A DNA stretch of 64,000 nt from positions 4,082,001 through 4,146,000 of the forward strand of contig NZ_CP061080.1 of assembly GCF_014495845.1 (NCBI RefSeq), given 5' to 3'. Position numbers and translations under genes: made by a program. This document shows, in pieces, positions 6,551 through 31,890 of this stretch. The notes beneath the pieces were generated by a model. The model did no database searches. It had not been told where the DNA came from and worked only from the letters and a program-made list of their open reading frames with translations. This DNA is from Aquibium microcysteis. Lineage in GTDB: Bacteria; Pseudomonadota; Alphaproteobacteria; Rhizobiales; Rhizobiaceae. Numbering within the stretch: position 1 is the stretch's first letter; every line of letters begins with the position of its first letter.

Positions 6551-7573
6551 TCAGCTGCCTCCCCGCTTCTTCAGCGACTGTGCGATGCTTTCAAGCACCG
6601 CGCGGGTCGCCCGCTGTTCCTCGGCCTGCGATTCCACCCAGTCGCGCATCATCTGCTGCTCGCTGCGCATGTTCTTCACCAGCCCCGAGATGCCTTCCGC
6701 TAGGTTTGCCATCGAGGTTGCGACGCGCTGGCTGGAGCCGCCGGTCTCGCTGATCGAGCGCAGCTGCTCGGCCATCCGGCGCATTTCTTCCGACGACGTG
6801 TTGCGACCCGGGTCGATGGCCGGCGCATCGGATCCGAGATCGGTCACCGACGACAGCCAGTTTTCGAGTTCGGTGTAGAAGCGCGTCTGCGCCCGGCCCG
6901 CCTGCAGGTCGAGGAAGCCGAGCACGAGCGATCCCGCAAGACCGAACAGCGAGGACGAGAAGGCCGTTCCCATGCCGGCGAGAGGCGCGGCGAGGCCCGT
7001 CTTCAGCGCATTCAGCACATCGTTGGCATCGCCCGATCCCGGATCGAGCGACTGGATCGTGTCACCGATGGAGCCGATGGTCTGCAGGAGGCCCCAGAAG
7101 GTGCCGAGCAGGCCGAGGAACACGAGGAGGCCGATCAGGTAGCGCGAGATGTCGCGGCTCTCGTCGAGGCGCGTGGCGATGGAATCGAGGATGGTTCGAA
7201 GCGACACCGTGGTGAGCGCCGTCGCCGAGGACCGGCCGAGCAGCACCTTCATCGGCGCCAGCAGCACCGGATCGCGCGTCTCCAGGCCGCCCGCGCGGAA
7301 GGAGTTGACCCAGCGAACCTCCCGGAACAGCCGCACCACCTGGTTGAAGGCGAGCAGCACGCCGACCGCCAGCACGCCGATGATCAGGCCGTTGAGGCCG
7401 GGATTGGTGGTGAAGGCGGCGGAGATCTGCCGGTACAGGATGGCGGCGACGAAACCGGCGATCGCCAGGAAGATCAGCATCGACAGCAGGAAGACCTGCG
7501 GACTGGAGAGCTTCTGCGGGTCGTACTGGCCGCCCGAAAGCGCCTCATCCGCCGTTGATCCGAACCATGCCAT
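6551..7573 (-). CDS. MotA/TolQ/ExbB proton-channel family protein
   Basis: A 340-residue membrane protein forming a stator-like channel with the adjacent MotB-like protein. Hydrophobic helices occur near residues 27-47, 63-82, 143-165 and 200-222. The core GLLGTFWGLLQTIGSI and LAAPLAGMGTAFSSSLFGL blocks are the MotA/ExbB signature. The C-terminus is a charged cytoplasmic tail (EQQMMRDWVESQAEEQRA). Pairs of this architecture are widely conserved in rhizobia as chromosomal genes. The energised process is unknown; cell-envelope maintenance is the likely setting. Confidence 0.85.
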   Translation of the reverse strand: MAWFGSTADEALSGGQYDPQKLSSPQVFLLSMLIFLAIAGFVAAILYRQISAAFTTNPGLNGLIIGVLAVGVLLAFNQVVRLFREVRWVNSFRAGGLETRDPVLLAPMKVLLGRSSATALTTVSLRTILDSIATRLDESRDISRYLIGLLVFLGLLGTFWGLLQTIGSIGDTIQSLDPGSGDANDVLNALKTGLAAPLAGMGTAFSSSLFGLAGSLVLGFLDLQAGRAQTRFYTELENWLSSVTDLGSDAPAIDPGRNTSSEEMRRMAEQLRSISETGGSSQRVATSMANLAEGISGLVKNMRSEQQMMRDWVESQAEEQRATRAVLESIAQSLKKRGGS

Positions 7574-25290: not shown

Positions 25291-25366
<76 letters not shown>

Positions 25367-25696
25367 GTGGAAATTCTTTGCCTTCGGCGGCTTGTGAGCG
25401 TCGAAAGCCCCCCACTTCCCCTCCCTTTGCCGAAACCCGGCCGAGCGTCAGCGCAGGGTGGCTGGCCCACGGCATCCGGAAGACCTCCTTCGCCCGGATC
25501 GGCGAAGTGCTGCAGATCCGTGTCCATCCTTCAGTTCCTGAGAAGTCTCTCTGGGTGATCAAGCGACCGTCCGGCAGGCGGCCGTTCCACCGCCCACAGG
25601 GCGGACAGGACCGGCTTCGACGTCAGACCTCCTTCTGGTCCGCAGAGGGCGGGCAGGCCGGAGCCGTCGCGCATGGAGACGGCTCCGGCATCCTCC
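25367..25696. other. Intergenic, no gene recognised
   Basis: About 330 bp between the tRNA and the convergent 3' end of the autotransporter gene. Only short, non-conserved open frames are present, and no T-tract terminator or attachment-site duplication of the tRNA 3' end was seen. Confidence 0.5.
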
Positions 25697-27979
25697 TCAG
25701 AAGTTCACGCGCCAGTTCGCCGCGATCCAGGCGTTGGAACTCTCCCCAGCGGTGGTGACGTTGCCCATGACGGAGAGCGTCGATCCGGCGACATCGAGTT
25801 CGAAGCCGGCGCCCGCGCGAAGCCAGTCTTGCTTGTGCTTTTCCGCCCCGAAATCGAACGTCTGCAGTCCCACGAGTTCGCCGGTCACATTCGATCCGCG
25901 GCCTTCGAAACGGTGCACCCCCTCCAGCGTGCCGATCAGGCGGAGTCTTTCGTTCAGCGGCATCTTCGCATCGACGCCGTAGCGAAGTTCGGTGCTGTCG
26001 CTGCAAAGCTTTCCGAAACTTGCCGGGAAGGCACCGCCGCTTTCCGTGTACCCGTCGAGGCATGCGCGGGCGTATGACAGTTCGCCGTAGGGGGAGAGGT
26101 ACGGGAAGAGGTTCTCGTACTGGAGACGTCCGCGGATCCCCGAGGCTCCGACATCCGTGCGGCCCGTCGAGGTGCCGATTGCGCCGCCATTGACCAGATA
26201 GTTGCGCGCGATGTCGGCGCCGCCCCGGAGCCCGGTGGCGGTGACGATCCCCCAGAGACCGCCGCTTGCATCTCCCGTGATCCGACCCATCGCCTCGAGC
26301 TTGAGGTATCCCGCGTCCACCTCGGTCGATCCGCCGAGCAGCGTGTGCTGGGTAAGCCGGGTGAGCCCCGCGACGGCATTCAGCTGGAGGACGCCGAGGT
26401 TGTATCCGAGCCCGATCTCGCCGATCCCGAGCGCCCCGTCGCGCCCGCCGTGATCGTCACGGCCGAGATCGCCGCCGACCCAGGCGGTGAACCGGCCTTC
26501 GGACACACGCCGATCGAGAGGCCGTGATCCCGCGCCATTGACGATGACGCCGAGGCCGTTGACCACGGACGTATTGGCCGTCCCGGACGTCGCCAGGCTC
26601 GCGCTCAACTCTTCCAGGACGCCGAGACCGGCGTTTCCACCGGATCCGCCGCCTCCGCCGTTGCCCGAGCCGCCGGTACCGCCGCCGGAATTGCCGCCGG
26701 GATCGCCTTCGCCTTCTCCGCCCCCGGTGCCGCCTTGCCCGCCGCCGCCGCCTTGATTGCCGCCGCCGGAATCCGGTTGTCCGGCGGGTCCGGTACCGGT
26801 GCCGCGAGCGACGTACACCTTGTTGTCATGGGTCAGACCGACGACGACGGAGCCGTCCGCATTCGTGGCTTCCGCCGTCTGCGTGATCCTGAACCGACCG
26901 AAATCGTCCCTCGGTATGTCGGCGCCGCTGTCCTCCAGCCACTCTTCGACCTGCTGCATTCCGCTGTCTTCCGTCCAGCGGAAACCGTAGAACGTACTGT
27001 CCTCCTTCATGGCCTTGCCGACGATGGTCATGCCGTTGCCGGAAACACCCAGAGACTGGGACTGCCGGTCGGTCGAGCCTTCCAGGTCTCCGAGTTCCGA
27101 GATCTGCCCGTCGTCCCAGCGGACGGCCCTGGTCGTGTAGCCCTTCAAAGAATGCCCGACGATGACCTGGCCGTCCCAGGATACGTCGGTCGCGGTCGCG
27201 GTGTCGTTGGCGACCGAATAGGCGCTGAGCGTCGGCAGCGTGGTCATCCCGGAGGCGTCGGTCCAGCGGAAGGCCTGAAACTTGTTCTGAGCCGACACGG
27301 CCGATCCGACGATCACGGAACCGTCCCAGGAGACGGCAGTCGCCCGATCGTTGCCCTTGCCTTCACCGCCCTCCAGCCAGCCGAGGCCGACCATGCCCGT
27401 ATCCTCGGTCCAGCGAAAGGCCTGCCCGCCGTTGGCGCCGATGTATCCGACGATGACCGACCCGTCTCCGGAAACCGATGTGGCTTCGGAGAAGACGTTG
27501 TCGTCGTCGAGATTCTCGAACCCGCCACCCGCCGTCCAGCGATAGGCGCGTTGACCGAACGGCGCGCCGGACACCCCGCTTGCCGCCTTGCCCACGATCA
27601 CGCCGCCGTCCGCCGAGATATCGGACGCGGTGTAATACTGATTGGCCGCGAGCGGTCGGTCGGTGGTGGCATCACCCGCCGGCACGATCCCGCCTTCTGC
27701 CGTCCAGATGAACCCGGTGTAGATGCTCTGGGAATAGCTGCGGTACACGGTGCCGACGAAGGCGCCGCCATCGGCCGTCACACCGCCGATCAGGGCTAAG
27801 TCGGTCAGGTCGCTGCTGAAGGAGGGTTCGGCAGGATCGCCGTACCGGTCGCGGATGATCTGCGTTGCCGCATGTTCATCGTAGCTGGCAGCTTCCTGGC
27901 CAAATCCCGGCGCCGCCACCAGAACGGCAGCCGTTGCGAGCGCTGTCGTCTGCAGCAAACCCATGCGTCGTTTGATCAT
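25697..27979 (-). CDS. HAF-repeat autotransporter
   Basis: A 760-residue outer-membrane autotransporter. Residues 1-28 form a signal peptide (MIKRRMGLLQTTALATAAVL...GFGQ). The passenger, about 40-390, is built from HAF-type repeats of the form VSGDGSVIVGYxxxxGGQAFRWTEDTGMVGLG, at least seven copies, likely a beta-propeller or beta-helix. A Gly/Ser/Gln-rich linker of about 60 residues (near 405-465) leads to a C-terminal beta-barrel ending in Phe (NAWIAANWRVNF), as needed for BAM insertion. Only two Cys are seen in the barrel (ACLDGY, KLCSDS). It is divergent from a two-component system and shares its operator region, so it is the obvious regulatory target. Confidence 0.88.
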   Translation of the reverse strand: MIKRRMGLLQTTALATAAVLVAAPGFGQEAASYDEHAATQIIRDRYGDPAEPSFSSDLTDLALIGGVTADGGAFVGTVYRSYSQSIYTGFIWTAEGGIVPAGDATTDRPLAANQYYTASDISADGGVIVGKAASGVSGAPFGQRAYRWTAGGGFENLDDDNVFSEATSVSGDGSVIVGYIGANGGQAFRWTEDTGMVGLGWLEGGEGKGNDRATAVSWDGSVIVGSAVSAQNKFQAFRWTDASGMTTLPTLSAYSVANDTATATDVSWDGQVIVGHSLKGYTTRAVRWDDGQISELGDLEGSTDRQSQSLGVSGNGMTIVGKAMKEDSTFYGFRWTEDSGMQQVEEWLEDSGADIPRDDFGRFRITQTAEATNADGSVVVGLTHDNKVYVARGTGTGPAGQPDSGGGNQGGGGGQGGTGGGEGEGDPGGNSGGGTGGSGNGGGGGSGGNAGLGVLEELSASLATSGTANTSVVNGLGVIVNGAGSRPLDRRVSEGRFTAWVGGDLGRDDHGGRDGALGIGEIGLGYNLGVLQLNAVAGLTRLTQHTLLGGSTEVDAGYLKLEAMGRITGDASGGLWGIVTATGLRGGADIARNYLVNGGAIGTSTGRTDVGASGIRGRLQYENLFPYLSPYGELSYARACLDGYTESGGAFPASFGKLCSDSTELRYGVDAKMPLNERLRLIGTLEGVHRFEGRGSNVTGELVGLQTFDFGAEKHKQDWLRAGAGFELDVAGSTLSVMGNVTTAGESSNAWIAANWRVNF

Positions 27980-28043
27980 TTTACACAGTCCCAACACTTC
28001 GGATGTCCCTGGGTAAAGGCTGGTAAAGACAGTGATCCGCTTG

Positions 28044-28093
28044 CGGCATCACCTGAACAGGTGAGGCTGAACTCACCTGTTCAGGTGATGCCG
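28044..28093. promoter_or_regulatory. Double palindromic operator in divergent promoter region
   Basis: Arms 28044-28065 and 28072-28093 are a perfect 22-bp inverted repeat with a 6-base spacer. Each arm itself contains a 16-bp near-perfect palindrome, TCACCTGAACAGGTGA (28049-28064) and TCACCTGTTCAGGTGA (28073-28088), 24 bp apart centre to centre. It lies 65 bp from the autotransporter start and 48 bp from the kinase start. Such paired dyads are typical operators for a dimeric regulator binding cooperatively. The LuxR-type regulator encoded just downstream is the first candidate. Confidence 0.75.
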
Positions 28094-28141
28094 ACGACGC
28101 TCTGCCTGCTATACGGGCACGCGAATCAGGTTGAAGGAGAC

Positions 28142-30298
28142 TTGGGCTTGCGGGCCAGAGCAACACCATCCGCCATCCTCGCCATGGTCGCAGCGGCCGG
28201 CCTTGCAGCCGCCGCCGTCGCGCTGCACCTTGCGCTTTCGCAGCCCTGGCTCGGACTGACCTTGTCCGTCGACGCGCTGACGCGGCAGGTCGTGGTCGAT
28301 CGAACCTCGTCGGGCGGCCCTGCCGACGGCATCCCTACTGCCACGGCCCTCGCCCGGATCGGCGGACTGCCGGTAGAGCCCGACGATCTCATCGAAGAGC
28401 CCGACGTCGTGGAGGACTACGCTGCCATGCATCGGTTCTTCGACCGTCAGACGGAATTTTCGGAGGCGGTTCGGGCTGCCCGGGTCGCGATTGCATCGGC
28501 GGGCAAGCCCGCCTCGGCCTGGGAGGTGCAGCCCCGGCCAAGCCGGCCTCTTTCGAGTCTTCCTCTCGTATTCTGGGTCCAGATCGGCGCGGGCCTGATC
28601 AGCCTCGTCATCGGGTGCTGGGTCTGGTGCATTCGCAGCCGCGAGGCGTCGACGAGACTGCTCGCCATGGCTGGCCTCGGAATCCCGGTATCGGCCTTTC
28701 CGGCTGCGATCTATTCGTCGCGGGAACTCGCTTTGCCGGGCGACCTTTTCCGCGCCCTGTCGTCGCTGAACTATCTCGGTTCGCTCACGTTCGGCGTCGC
28801 GATGGCTGCGCTGTTCTTCGTCTATCCGAACCGGCTGATTCCCGCGCGCGCGCTCATCGCGCTGCCGGCCCTGTTCCTGCCCATTTGGTCGGTGGATGCG
28901 CTGCAGCTGGGCTTTGCCGGCCCGGTCGAGGGTCGGCATCTGCCCATCGTCATCCTGATGCTGCTGATTTTGGCGGGAGGTGCCTGGCAGTATCGTGCAA
29001 GTCGCCCTGATCCCGCCGCCAGGGCCGTCGTCCGGTGGTTCGCGCTGTCCGTCGGCCTTTGCGCCGGAACCTTCGTCGTCGTCGTGCTCGCGCCGAATCT
29101 GTTCGGCATCAGGACGGCCGTCTCTCAGGGATATGCCTTCGTGCTGTTCGCGCTGCTCTTCCTCGGTGTCGCAGCCGGCGTCGCACGCTACAGACTGTTC
29201 GAAGTCGAACGCTGGGCGTTCGCACTTCTCTACTACTTCGGCGCGATCGCCTTGCTGCTGACGATCGACGCTTTCCTGATCTATGCGATCGCCATGGAGC
29301 GGCCGGCCGCCTTCGGCGTGTCGCTTCTCTTCGTCGGTCTCTTCTACCTTCCGGCACGCGACTGGTTGTCGAAATCGCTGATGCGCAGGCGCGTCCTCGA
29401 CCGCGGCGAGATCTTTCGAAGGCTGGTCGACACGGCGATGAACTCCGACAATGCCCGACGCAGGAACGGATGGGAAGGCGTGCTGAGGGATGTGTTCGAC
29501 CCGCTGCAGGTCGCAACGGCAACGCAACCGGCGCCGAGACGGCCGGCATTGGTCGAAAACGGACTGGCACTTCTCGTTCCTCCCGTACCTGGCCTCCCGG
29601 CCTTCGAACTCCGCTATGCCCACGCCGGACGCAAACTGTTCACGCGGTCCGACGAGCGGCTCGTCGCTGAACTCGGCGCCATCCTCGAGCATGCCGTTTC
29701 GAGCCGCGCCGCTCATGAAAAAGGCGCTGCCCTAGAGCGGACGCGGATCGCGCGCGACATGCACGACAACATCGGAGCCCAGCTTCTGTCCGCGCTGCAC
29801 AGCGACAGGCGCGAGAAGAAAGATGCCTTGATCCGCGAGACGATCTCGGACCTCCGCGACATCGTCAACAACGCGTCGAGAGGCATGCGGACGCTCGAAG
29901 AGGTGCTGGCCGACCTCCACGCCGAAGTCGGCGAACGGCTTGCCGTGGCGCGCATCGACCTGTCGTGGCGGCAGTCGCTTGCCGAACCGGACCGGCCTCT
30001 CGAGCCGAATGTCGCCCACGCTCTTCGTTCGATCCTGCGCGAAACCGTGAGCAACGCGATCAAGCATTCCGCGGCCCGCACAGTCACGGTGGAGATCCAG
30101 GCATCGGACAGACGGGTGTGCATGGGAATCCGGGACGACGGTGCCGGCCTGTCCGGGGGCTCTCTGCGACGTGGTCATGGACTTTCGAACATCGAGGCAC
30201 GCGTGCAGGCTCTCGGCGGCAGCCTGTCCCTGGCCGATGCCTCGCCGGGGCTTGCCGTGACGATCGAAATTCCTTCTGCCGCCGGCGCAGTGACATGA
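28142..30298 (+). CDS. Membrane sensor histidine kinase (HisKA_3 type)
   Basis: A 718-residue sensor kinase. The TTG at 28142 is preferred because GAAGGAG lies six bases before it; the in-frame ATG at 28088 would start inside the operator. A first helix (about 10-32) is followed by an extracytoplasmic PDZ-like segment (about 38-130, VDRTSSGGPADGIPTATALARIGG). About eight helices (roughly 140-420) follow. The dimerisation/phosphoacceptor block TRIARDMHDNIGAQLLSAL carries H541, and the HATPase has RETVSNAIKHSA, IRDDGAGL and GHGLSNIEARVQALGG. The layout resembles ComP-like kinases. It overlaps its response regulator by ATGA, so the two are translated together. Confidence 0.9.
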   Translation: MGLRARATPSAILAMVAAAGLAAAAVALHLALSQPWLGLTLSVDALTRQVVVDRTSSGGPADGIPTATALARIGGLPVEPDDLIEEPDVVEDYAAMHRFFDRQTEFSEAVRAARVAIASAGKPASAWEVQPRPSRPLSSLPLVFWVQIGAGLISLVIGCWVWCIRSREASTRLLAMAGLGIPVSAFPAAIYSSRELALPGDLFRALSSLNYLGSLTFGVAMAALFFVYPNRLIPARALIALPALFLPIWSVDALQLGFAGPVEGRHLPIVILMLLILAGGAWQYRASRPDPAARAVVRWFALSVGLCAGTFVVVVLAPNLFGIRTAVSQGYAFVLFALLFLGVAAGVARYRLFEVERWAFALLYYFGAIALLLTIDAFLIYAIAMERPAAFGVSLLFVGLFYLPARDWLSKSLMRRRVLDRGEIFRRLVDTAMNSDNARRRNGWEGVLRDVFDPLQVATATQPAPRRPALVENGLALLVPPVPGLPAFELRYAHAGRKLFTRSDERLVAELGAILEHAVSSRAAHEKGAALERTRIARDMHDNIGAQLLSALHSDRREKKDALIRETISDLRDIVNNASRGMRTLEEVLADLHAEVGERLAVARIDLSWRQSLAEPDRPLEPNVAHALRSILRETVSNAIKHSAARTVTVEIQASDRRVCMGIRDDGAGLSGGSLRRGHGLSNIEARVQALGGSLSLADASPGLAVTIEIPSAAGAVT

Positions 30299-30942
30299 CG
30301 GCGATCCTCATCGTCGAAGACCTCGCGGAGAGCCGCAAATGGCTGTCCGACCTGTGCAGATCGGCATTCCCGGAACCGCACGACATCGACATGGCCGTGA
30401 CGTTGCGAGCGGCGATCGCGGCAGTGAGCCGCAAGGACTACGACATCGCTCTCGTCGATCTCGGCCTGCCCGACGGATCGGGGGTCGACGTCATTCGTGC
30501 GGTCAGATCGCGACAGAGCGAGACCTTGTGTGTCGTGACGACGGTCATGGGCGACGACATGCACATCGTTGCAGCCCTTTCGGCGGGCGCCAGCGGTTAT
30601 CTCCTGAAGGAGCAGCCCGCCGAGGTCGTCGTCAGGCAGCTTTCCCAGCTCGTGGACGGCATTCCGGCATTGTCTCCCGCCATAGCGCGTCGGATCATGG
30701 AGCATTTCCAGCTGACGGGCCCGGCGGCAGAACCCGAAGAAAGTCTGACCGAACGGGAACGCGAAGTGCTGGCGTTCATCGGCAGAGGGATGCGCACGGC
30801 CGAGGTCGCCAGACAGATGGTCCTGTCCGAGAACACGGTCGCCACCCACATCAAGGCGATCTACCGCAAGCTCGGCATATCATCCCGCGCCGAAGCATCC
30901 TGGCATGCGGCAAGGCTCGGACTGACGACAGAAGGACGATAG
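30295..30942 (+). CDS. NarL/LuxR-family response regulator
   Basis: A 215-residue response regulator. The receiver domain has acidic residues ED near position 8-9, phosphoacceptor D55 in ALVDLGLPDGSG and K105-region LLKEQP. The C-terminal LuxR-type helix-turn-helix is LTEREREVLAFIGRGMRTAEVARQMVLSENTVATHIKAIYRKLGISSR. Its ATG overlaps the kinase stop. It is presumably phosphorylated by that kinase and binds the paired palindromes at 28044-28093 to control the autotransporter and its own operon; the binding is inference. Confidence 0.93.
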   Translation: MTAILIVEDLAESRKWLSDLCRSAFPEPHDIDMAVTLRAAIAAVSRKDYDIALVDLGLPDGSGVDVIRAVRSRQSETLCVVTTVMGDDMHIVAALSAGASGYLLKEQPAEVVVRQLSQLVDGIPALSPAIARRIMEHFQLTGPAAEPEESLTEREREVLAFIGRGMRTAEVARQMVLSENTVATHIKAIYRKLGISSRAEASWHAARLGLTTEGR

Positions 30943-31173
30943 CTGCCGCCCGGTGTGTCCAGCGCTGACGATGGCGGAGCCAACTCCCGGTGGCCCGCTC
31001 TGCCTCTTACGGACCGAACACGTGTCCATGCCGGCCATCCGTACCGCCAGGTGCGATCTGCGGCAGTATCCTTTGGCAATGCAACGGTCCGGCAGCCTCA
31101 CCAGACACTCTTGCACGCGGGTCCGAAGACGCCGCCGGCCGGTCTCGCGATCCCGGCGGTATGCGCGTCCCCG

Positions 31174-31890
31174 CTACCCCACGCTCCCGCCCCCATCGAC
31201 CAGCACCACGCTGCCGGTCATGAAGCCGTTCTGCATCAGGTGGACGATCTGGGCGGCCACTTCCTCCGGCCGGCCGATCCGCCTCAGCGGCGTCGCCGCG
31301 GCCGTCTTGTCGAACAGGGCGAGGCGCTGGTCCGGCGGCAGGTAGTCCCACCAGGGGGTCTCGATGCGGCCGGGAGAGACGCAGTTGACGCGGACGGGCG
31401 CCATCTCGGTCGCCAGCGCCTTCGCCAGCGTGTCGATGGCCGCGTTGATGGCGCTGAGCATGGTGGCTGCGCCCGTGGGGCGGGTGCCGATCATGCCCGA
31501 GACCAGCGTCAGGCTGCCGCCGGCCACGATCCGCGCGGCATGGGCGACGTTGACGGCGCCCCAGAACTTGCTGTCCATCGCGGCGCACTCGTCGGCGAGG
31601 CTGCGCTGGCGCAGCGGGCCGACCGAGAGGTCCGCCGCCGAGACGACGACGTGGTGGAAGGGCTCGCGCGCGTCGAAGAAGGCGCGCACGGCCGGCGCGT
31701 CGCGCAGGTCGAGCGCCCGGGTCTCCGCGTCGCCGAGAGCCGCCCGCGCGCGGTCCAGGCGGTCTTCCGAGCGCGACACCAGCACGATCCGGGCGCCGAG
31801 CGCATGCGCGGCCTGCGCGGTGGCGAAGCCGATGCCCGACGACCCGCCGAACACCGCCACCGTCTGGCCCGCGAGCGGATGGGCGGTCAC
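31174..31890 (-). CDS. SDR family oxidoreductase
   Basis: A 238-residue short-chain dehydrogenase. The cofactor motif is FGGSSGIGFATAQ (GxxxGxG), and a C-terminal block reads RVNCVSPGRIETPWW. The usual catalytic SxnYxxxK is not canonical: the expected Tyr-Lys region reads SGMIGTRPTGAATMLSAINAAIDTLAKAL, with Met-Leu-Ser replacing the Tyr. This group of atypical SDRs may have changed chemistry. It is the last gene of the TRAP operon; its GTG lies two bases after the preceding stop, with GAGGAC as a ribosome site. Confidence 0.82.
   Translation of the reverse strand: MTAHPLAGQTVAVFGGSSGIGFATAQAAHALGARIVLVSRSEDRLDRARAALGDAETRALDLRDAPAVRAFFDAREPFHHVVVSAADLSVGPLRQRSLADECAAMDSKFWGAVNVAHAARIVAGGSLTLVSGMIGTRPTGAATMLSAINAAIDTLAKALATEMAPVRVNCVSPGRIETPWWDYLPPDQRLALFDKTAAATPLRRIGRPEEVAAQIVHLMQNGFMTGSVVLVDGGGSVG

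Follow-up and report, generated by a model that had tools for sequence, protein, structure and literature searches.

In the window (the whole stretch of 64,000 nucleotides that was analysed), a membrane kinase and a response regulator form, with a probability of roughly 0.77, a NarL/DesK-type two-component switch dedicated to the neighbouring surface protein, in a family that has repeatedly exchanged this partner and kept the operator. An envelope or external signal would cause the kinase to autophosphorylate on H539 and to pass the phosphate to D55 of the regulator. The phosphorylated regulator would dimerise via its GerE domain on 7-2-7 palindromes between the divergent promoters and jointly control the kinase-regulator operon and a beta-propeller autotransporter, whose propeller would be displayed on the surface. 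Across relatives, the family would swap its partner (HAF autotransporter, Slam plus lipoprotein, RTX/DUF4214 or VPLPA-CTERM protein) with retention of the operator. The features of the cassette are the following.

25291..25366, + strand, tRNA-Ala, left edge of the variable segment
25697..27979, - strand, HAF-repeat autotransporter, 760 aa (TIGR02913, 1.7e-22; PF03797, 2.1e-15)
25700..26611, - strand, autotransporter beta-barrel, residues 457-760
26612..27835, - strand, beta-propeller passenger, residues 49-456 (modelled)
28044..28065, no strand, candidate operator copy 1 (21-bp block invariant in 5/5 clade-I promoters aligned)
28072..28093, no strand, candidate operator copy 2, inverted duplicate (window only, among five promoters)
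28110..28115, + strand, possible -10 TATACG of the kinase operon (ad hoc scoring, weak)
28148..30298, + strand, multi-helix membrane sensor kinase, 716 aa (PF07730, PF02518)
30295..30942, + strand, NarL-type response regulator, 215 aa (PF00072, 5e-16; PF00196, 5.8e-17)

The kinase-regulator operon (28148-30942, + strand), in which the two genes overlap by 4 bases, diverges from the HAF autotransporter gene (25697-27979, - strand). The three genes named in an earlier, sequence-only reading of this DNA as a HAF autotransporter, a kinase and a LuxR-type regulator are real, with matches to TIGR02913, PF03797, HisKA_3, HATPase_c, Response_reg and GerE. The shared divergent promoter, which that reading had put at about 160 bp, measures 168 bp from the TTG start of the kinase at 28148. 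This start is preceded by AGGAG, and ATG at 28184 is the alternative; the database entry P0001 has 704 aa, so its start probably lies 12 codons further in.

In a congener (G004), the same flanks, namely the tRNA-Ala gene on one side and, on the other, the stretch from 31159 onwards with its SDR gene, enclose other genes, for a glycosyltransferase and an oxidoreductase (functions read from the sequence). The cassette therefore sits in a variable segment (25367-31158) beside a tRNA gene, a variable insertion place. In two further congeners, the left flank alone was present in the stretch compared. Near the right border (30901-31300), the tRNA-Ala end (25301-25420) is not directly repeated over 11 or more bases, and for this reason no attachment site is claimed. 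The kinase is absent from 4/4 congeners of the host (one genome 69% complete) and its role is therefore accessory.

The kinase matches HisKA_3 (4.8e-5) and HATPase_c (1e-9) and has the H-box, N-box and G-boxes of HisKA_3 (NarX/DesK-type) kinases, with residues H539, N636, D663/G665 and G676/G678 invariant in a 28-row alignment. The solved DesK structures 3gig and 5iuj are the best structural matches of its core; unlike in DesK-DesR, the N-terminal sensor is much larger and the target is different. The PDZ-like sensor of the sequence-only reading is weakly supported. A profile of 14 N-terminal kinase parts matched mostly PDZ chains in the PDB, weakly (E 0.12-0.86), with a non-PDZ chain as the top match (E 0.032), and PDZ_6 was matched in 2/28 family members, the window's own protein being without a match. 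The regulator consists of Response_reg and GerE domains and carries E8/D9, the phospho-acceptor D55 and K105 in the receiver and T184 in the recognition helix of the C-terminal GerE domain, as expected of the NarL/FixJ type. Its closest solved structures are DevR/DosR and NarL.

The autotransporter scores 79.1 bits against TIGR02913, with a curated cut-off of 22.65, and is thus a HAF-repeat protein. A signal peptide (judged by eye), a propeller passenger, a Gly-rich linker and a PF03797 barrel ending in a C-terminal F identify it as a classical (type Va) autotransporter. In the AF2 model (mean pLDDT 86.9), the passenger is predicted to be a beta-propeller with seven blades, counted by hand from the DSSP strands, and its last strand comes after the Gly-rich linker. 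The consensus of alignment A2 shows LGxL repeated. By this repeat pattern the protein may be likened to XatA of Xylella fastidiosa, a classical autotransporter with LGxL repeats of about 50 aa and a predicted propeller, which confers autoaggregation and biofilm formation according to extracts of PMC3426408. XatA has six repeats versus the seven blades counted in the window passenger, and those extracts mention no neighbouring two-component system controlling XatA. The earlier statement that HAF-repeat proteins have no known job would not wholly hold, provided that XatA is a member of their repeat family. One HAF autotransporter is named as a likely attachment protein in an extract of PMC8685578, and the displayed propeller is probably an adhesin.

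Two 16-bp palindromes TCACCTGWWCAGGTGA (28049-28064 and 28073-28088) are located in the divergent gap and belong to a perfect 22-bp inverted repeat (arms 28044-28065 and 28072-28093, 6-base loop), exactly as first described. Each of them is a 7-2-7 site (TCACCTG-WW-CAGGTGA) with half-sites 2 bp apart. The longest invariant block of five clade-I divergent promoters, GGCATCACCTGAACAGGTGAG (21 bp), contains the site, and the flanks GGCA/G of operator copy 1 are conserved. This comparison included the window and four orthologous promoters, with L141 left out, its promoter being missing. What is conserved among the five is a single palindrome; the double operator proposed earlier, with its second, inverted copy, was found in the window alone among them. 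At L141 (G406, about position 7268), the HAF autotransporter and kinase matches abut, and both N-termini and the operator are gone; the junction is either a genuine deletion or a misassembly.

In extracts of PMC7419079 and PMC4549865, NarL sites are inverted heptamers with 2-bp spacing, and at E. coli ogt, similarly to the window, NarL uses two 7-2-7 sites, one abutting the -35 element (PMC7419079, extract). The E. coli NarX-NarL system likewise joins a HisKA_3 kinase and a NarL-type regulator with 2-bp-spaced inverted heptamers. In contrast to it, the window heptamer is TCACCTG and not the NarL consensus, the sensor is multi-helix, the target is a surface protein, and one local target was found for the window pair compared to the wide regulon of NarL. 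The LuxR/NarL-type regulator of the cassette is the best-fitting owner of the operator; the half-sites that the first reading likened to LuxR-type ones have a NarL-type 7-2-7 geometry and not that of a quorum-sensing lux box. In lux boxes, ACCTG half-sites lie about 10 bp apart; a lux box was ruled out by the 2-bp spacing of the half-sites and by the receiver in place of an autoinducer domain. Taking TATACG at 28110 as a -10 element (ad hoc scoring) would centre operator 2 near -41.5, a weak placement because a consensus scan around the site found no promoter. Activation is favoured over repression solely on account of this possible placement at about -41.5, which is an activator position.

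The partners of the kinase family were determined in 63 kinase loci (the window, 37 loci of a first set and 25 of a second set), mainly from the host family, the host order and the family of a Cypionkella genome. A HAF autotransporter was adjacent by tblastn in 12 loci (window, L139, L140, L141, L144, L145, L146, L173, L174, L176, L177, and L181), a Slam and/or lipoprotein gene in 25, an RTX or DUF4214 gene in 5 (L151-L155), and a VPLPA-CTERM gene in 1 (L224, with an exact site in front), and 1 locus had a distant HAF autotransporter. The other 19 had no recognised partner in the sequence examined (L033, L039, L041, L042, L043, L045, L046, L142, L143, L156, L175, L178, L182, L219, L221, L232, L241, L242, and L243), some being on short contigs and several also without the site. 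TIGR02913 was confirmed for L145, L174, L176, L177, and L181, and also at the places of L139, L140, L144, L145, and L146. The distant HAF autotransporter (718 aa; L180, genome G535) is encoded 193 kb from the kinase, and a one-mismatch site TCCCCTGTTCGGGGGA lies 83 bp in front of its start.

Slam (PF04575) and/or lipoprotein genes accompany the kinase in seven first-set loci (L034, L147, L149, L148, L150, L044, and L179) and in 18 of the second set (L220, L222, L223, L225-L231, and L233-L240), where partners were identified by tblastn to first-set partners and by the lipobox. A lipoprotein alone, with no Slam seen, was present in L179, L223, and L228. Pfam confirmed 2/2 of the second-set Slam proteins, and 0/6 lipoproteins reached the cut-off. 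PF04575 was found in 16/37 genomes searched, in 6 of them beside the kinase. Relatives of the kinase-regulator pair, often with the operator, thus adjoin Slam and lipoprotein genes, whereas the window's genome has no PF04575 match and carries the autotransporter instead. Three lipoprotein genes stand in tandem beside the kinase at L228 (3742-5979). At L149 (5476-6896), the match to Slam is split over two overlapping stretches in different frames, and the gene is apparently broken, in this genome only.

Loci left out of the counts were L035 (kinase 23% identical), L047-L050 and L058 (partial kinase), L040 (same contig as L150), L051-L118 except as background, L157-L161 and L183-L192 (not kinase loci), and the short loci L001-L032, L119-L138, L162-L172, and L193-L218 (fragments of the same loci, or unrelated kinases). 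Kinase relatives, taken to E 1e-80 with the 28-row family profile A1, occurred in 20/394 genomes of the host family, 11/297 of the host order and 26/394 of the family of the Cypionkella genome. The HAF repeat was found in 21/394 genomes, 6 of them shared with the 20 kinase genomes (Fisher P = 2.6e-4, assuming that the two draws of 394 genomes are the same set). With a HAF gene adjacent in 12/63 kinase loci, the autotransporter and the kinase are co-conserved, in agreement with the self-contained sensing and display cassette initially suggested, but the kinase-regulator family is not specific for HAF proteins, and Slam/lipoprotein is the commoner partner among these loci (25/63). In a tree of the kinase from 37 rows of the first set, the HAF label needs 3 changes and the Slam label 5; at least 2 HAF changes and at least 4 Slam changes are forced by well-supported branches, and L148 (Slam) and L181 (HAF) are sisters with 100/100 support. 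The surface partner was therefore exchanged more than once.

The slotting of one kinase-regulator family and its operator beside interchangeable surface proteins appears to be new, and the component families are known. Among the matches listed in the open PubMed Central literature, neither such an association was found nor a regulator dedicated to HAF/propeller autotransporters or Slam lipoproteins. The cassette provides a candidate dedicated regulator and a concrete operator for two routes of surface display, that of HAF/propeller autotransporters and that of Slam-dependent surface lipoproteins. The switching of individual surface proteins in alphaproteobacteria, and the joint move of a regulator and operator to a new partner, thereby become open to experiment.

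The operator pattern was defined from the first locus set, and the second set of 25 loci was kept independent. In 549,517 bases of the 38 first-set loci, allowing at most 2 mismatches gave 29 sites (15 exact), of which 18 lie no more than 500 bp upstream of the kinase; dinucleotide shuffles gave 4 sites, none exact, in 1,648,551 bases. The second set contained 17 sites in 324,865 bases, and 11/25 loci had a site (up to 2 mismatches) in the 500 bp preceding the kinase, where the shuffles predict 0.027. Control loci L047-L118 had 2 sites in 833,698 bases, and the shuffles are the better background because many of these loci are Firmicutes by name. Scanning 31 kinase-bearing genomes whole placed 15/16 exact sites at the kinase locus, in 14 genomes, and no exact site was found in 6 genomes without the kinase. 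With one mismatch allowed, the pattern was present in 23/37 genomes and the reversed-pattern control in 2/37. At L034, L147, and L149, the site precedes a lipoprotein-Slam-kinase-regulator array, 2.8 kb from the kinase, and at L179 it precedes the lipoprotein gene. The operator moves with the partner gene.

Sites off the kinase locus bear on how wide the regulon may be. Off-locus one-mismatch sites were found in other genomes, two of them directly before autotransporters. One site, TCCCCTGATCAGGGGT at L160 6104 (G301:C38:205603, Martelella), lies 98 bp upstream of a PATR-type autotransporter of 1911 aa. Regulators of the NarL family commonly act on many targets through degenerate sites, and this background together with the site before a second autotransporter type in G301 would suit a general envelope regulator, with a real operator and regulator but with the autotransporter as one of many targets. 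We regard this as unlikely, since, in the search for further copies proposed at the outset, exact TCACCTGWWCAGGTGA occurs at only two sites in the 6,109,263-base genome of the window, both in the cassette gap, and TCMCCTGWWCAGGKGA with one mismatch gave no further site in that genome.

A further reading, an improbable one, is a closed assembly loop. The extracytoplasmic PDZ-like part of the kinase could read the exposed aromatic C-terminal tail of its own unassembled partner barrel and match synthesis to insertion, the module being re-used across export routes by swapping the partner gene and operator together. The PDZ domain of DegS reads the tails of porins in this way, and the partner barrels end in ...WRVNF (HAF autotransporter) and ...KEF, ...REF or ...RSF (Slam). 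The RTX, DUF4214, and VPLPA-CTERM partners speak against such an assembly loop as a general rule because they are not barrels.

The link between the operator and the regulator of the cassette was further analyzed at the level of single residues. Regulator T184 aligns with NarL residue 189 and DosR N183. The NarL residue is index 188 of the aligned chain, which is numbered one behind native: D55 falls on index 58, and NarL is phosphorylated at Asp59 (PMC4549865, extract). DosR N183 is among three base-contacting residues (PMC4082495, extract). Under the looser pattern (up to 1 mismatch), the site with the best palindrome near the kinase was taken at each locus, and a complete palindrome was usable in 23/57 loci entered. 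In these, T184 occurred with A at operator base 3 (9/9) and S or G184 with C (14/14). The exceptions are T184 with imperfect C-type sites (L033, L180, L236, L237, and L239) and one mixed site at L224 (S184). Correction for the tree left 1-3 independent contrasts, none opposed, which is not significant, and some contrasts do not differ when imperfect sites are included. Position 184 was the sole column of the DNA-binding domain separating the two operator types in 12 versus 9 loci, and regulator positions 150 and 206 separated them equally well in the strict comparison of 9 versus 6 loci. The agreement of residue 184 with base 3 supports, and does not prove, a tie between the regulator and the operator.

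It is improbable that the palindrome belongs to another regulator, such as a TetR- or GntR-type repressor encoded elsewhere, with the pair acting on other genes. Near-perfect short palindromes are typical of these repressors, and one exact site in genome G041 lies away from its kinase, but the site accompanies the kinase family in two locus sets beside different partners, 15/16 exact copies are at the kinase locus, and base 3 matches residue 184 in 23/23 complete palindromes, albeit with few independent contrasts. The G041 site (L157 5197, C11) lies just upstream of a GH3 gene (glycoside-hydrolase family 3) whose product begins much like a signal peptide. A role of the 22-bp inverted repeat at the RNA level (hairpin, attenuator or bidirectional terminator) in place of an operator is very improbable and was rejected. 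The window repeat could fold into a stem of 22 bp closed by a 6-base loop, but the four orthologous promoters keep one 7-2-7 palindrome unable to make this stem, the site precedes different transcripts in Slam loci, and a search for a terminator-like site found none.

Variation was also seen at the residue next to 184. At L181 (9239), the variant palindrome CCCCCTGTTCGAGGGG is located between the regulator (G184-Y185) and the HAF autotransporter. Regulators with Y185 had C at operator position 1 in 7/7 complete palindromes, and those with H185 had T in 14/16.
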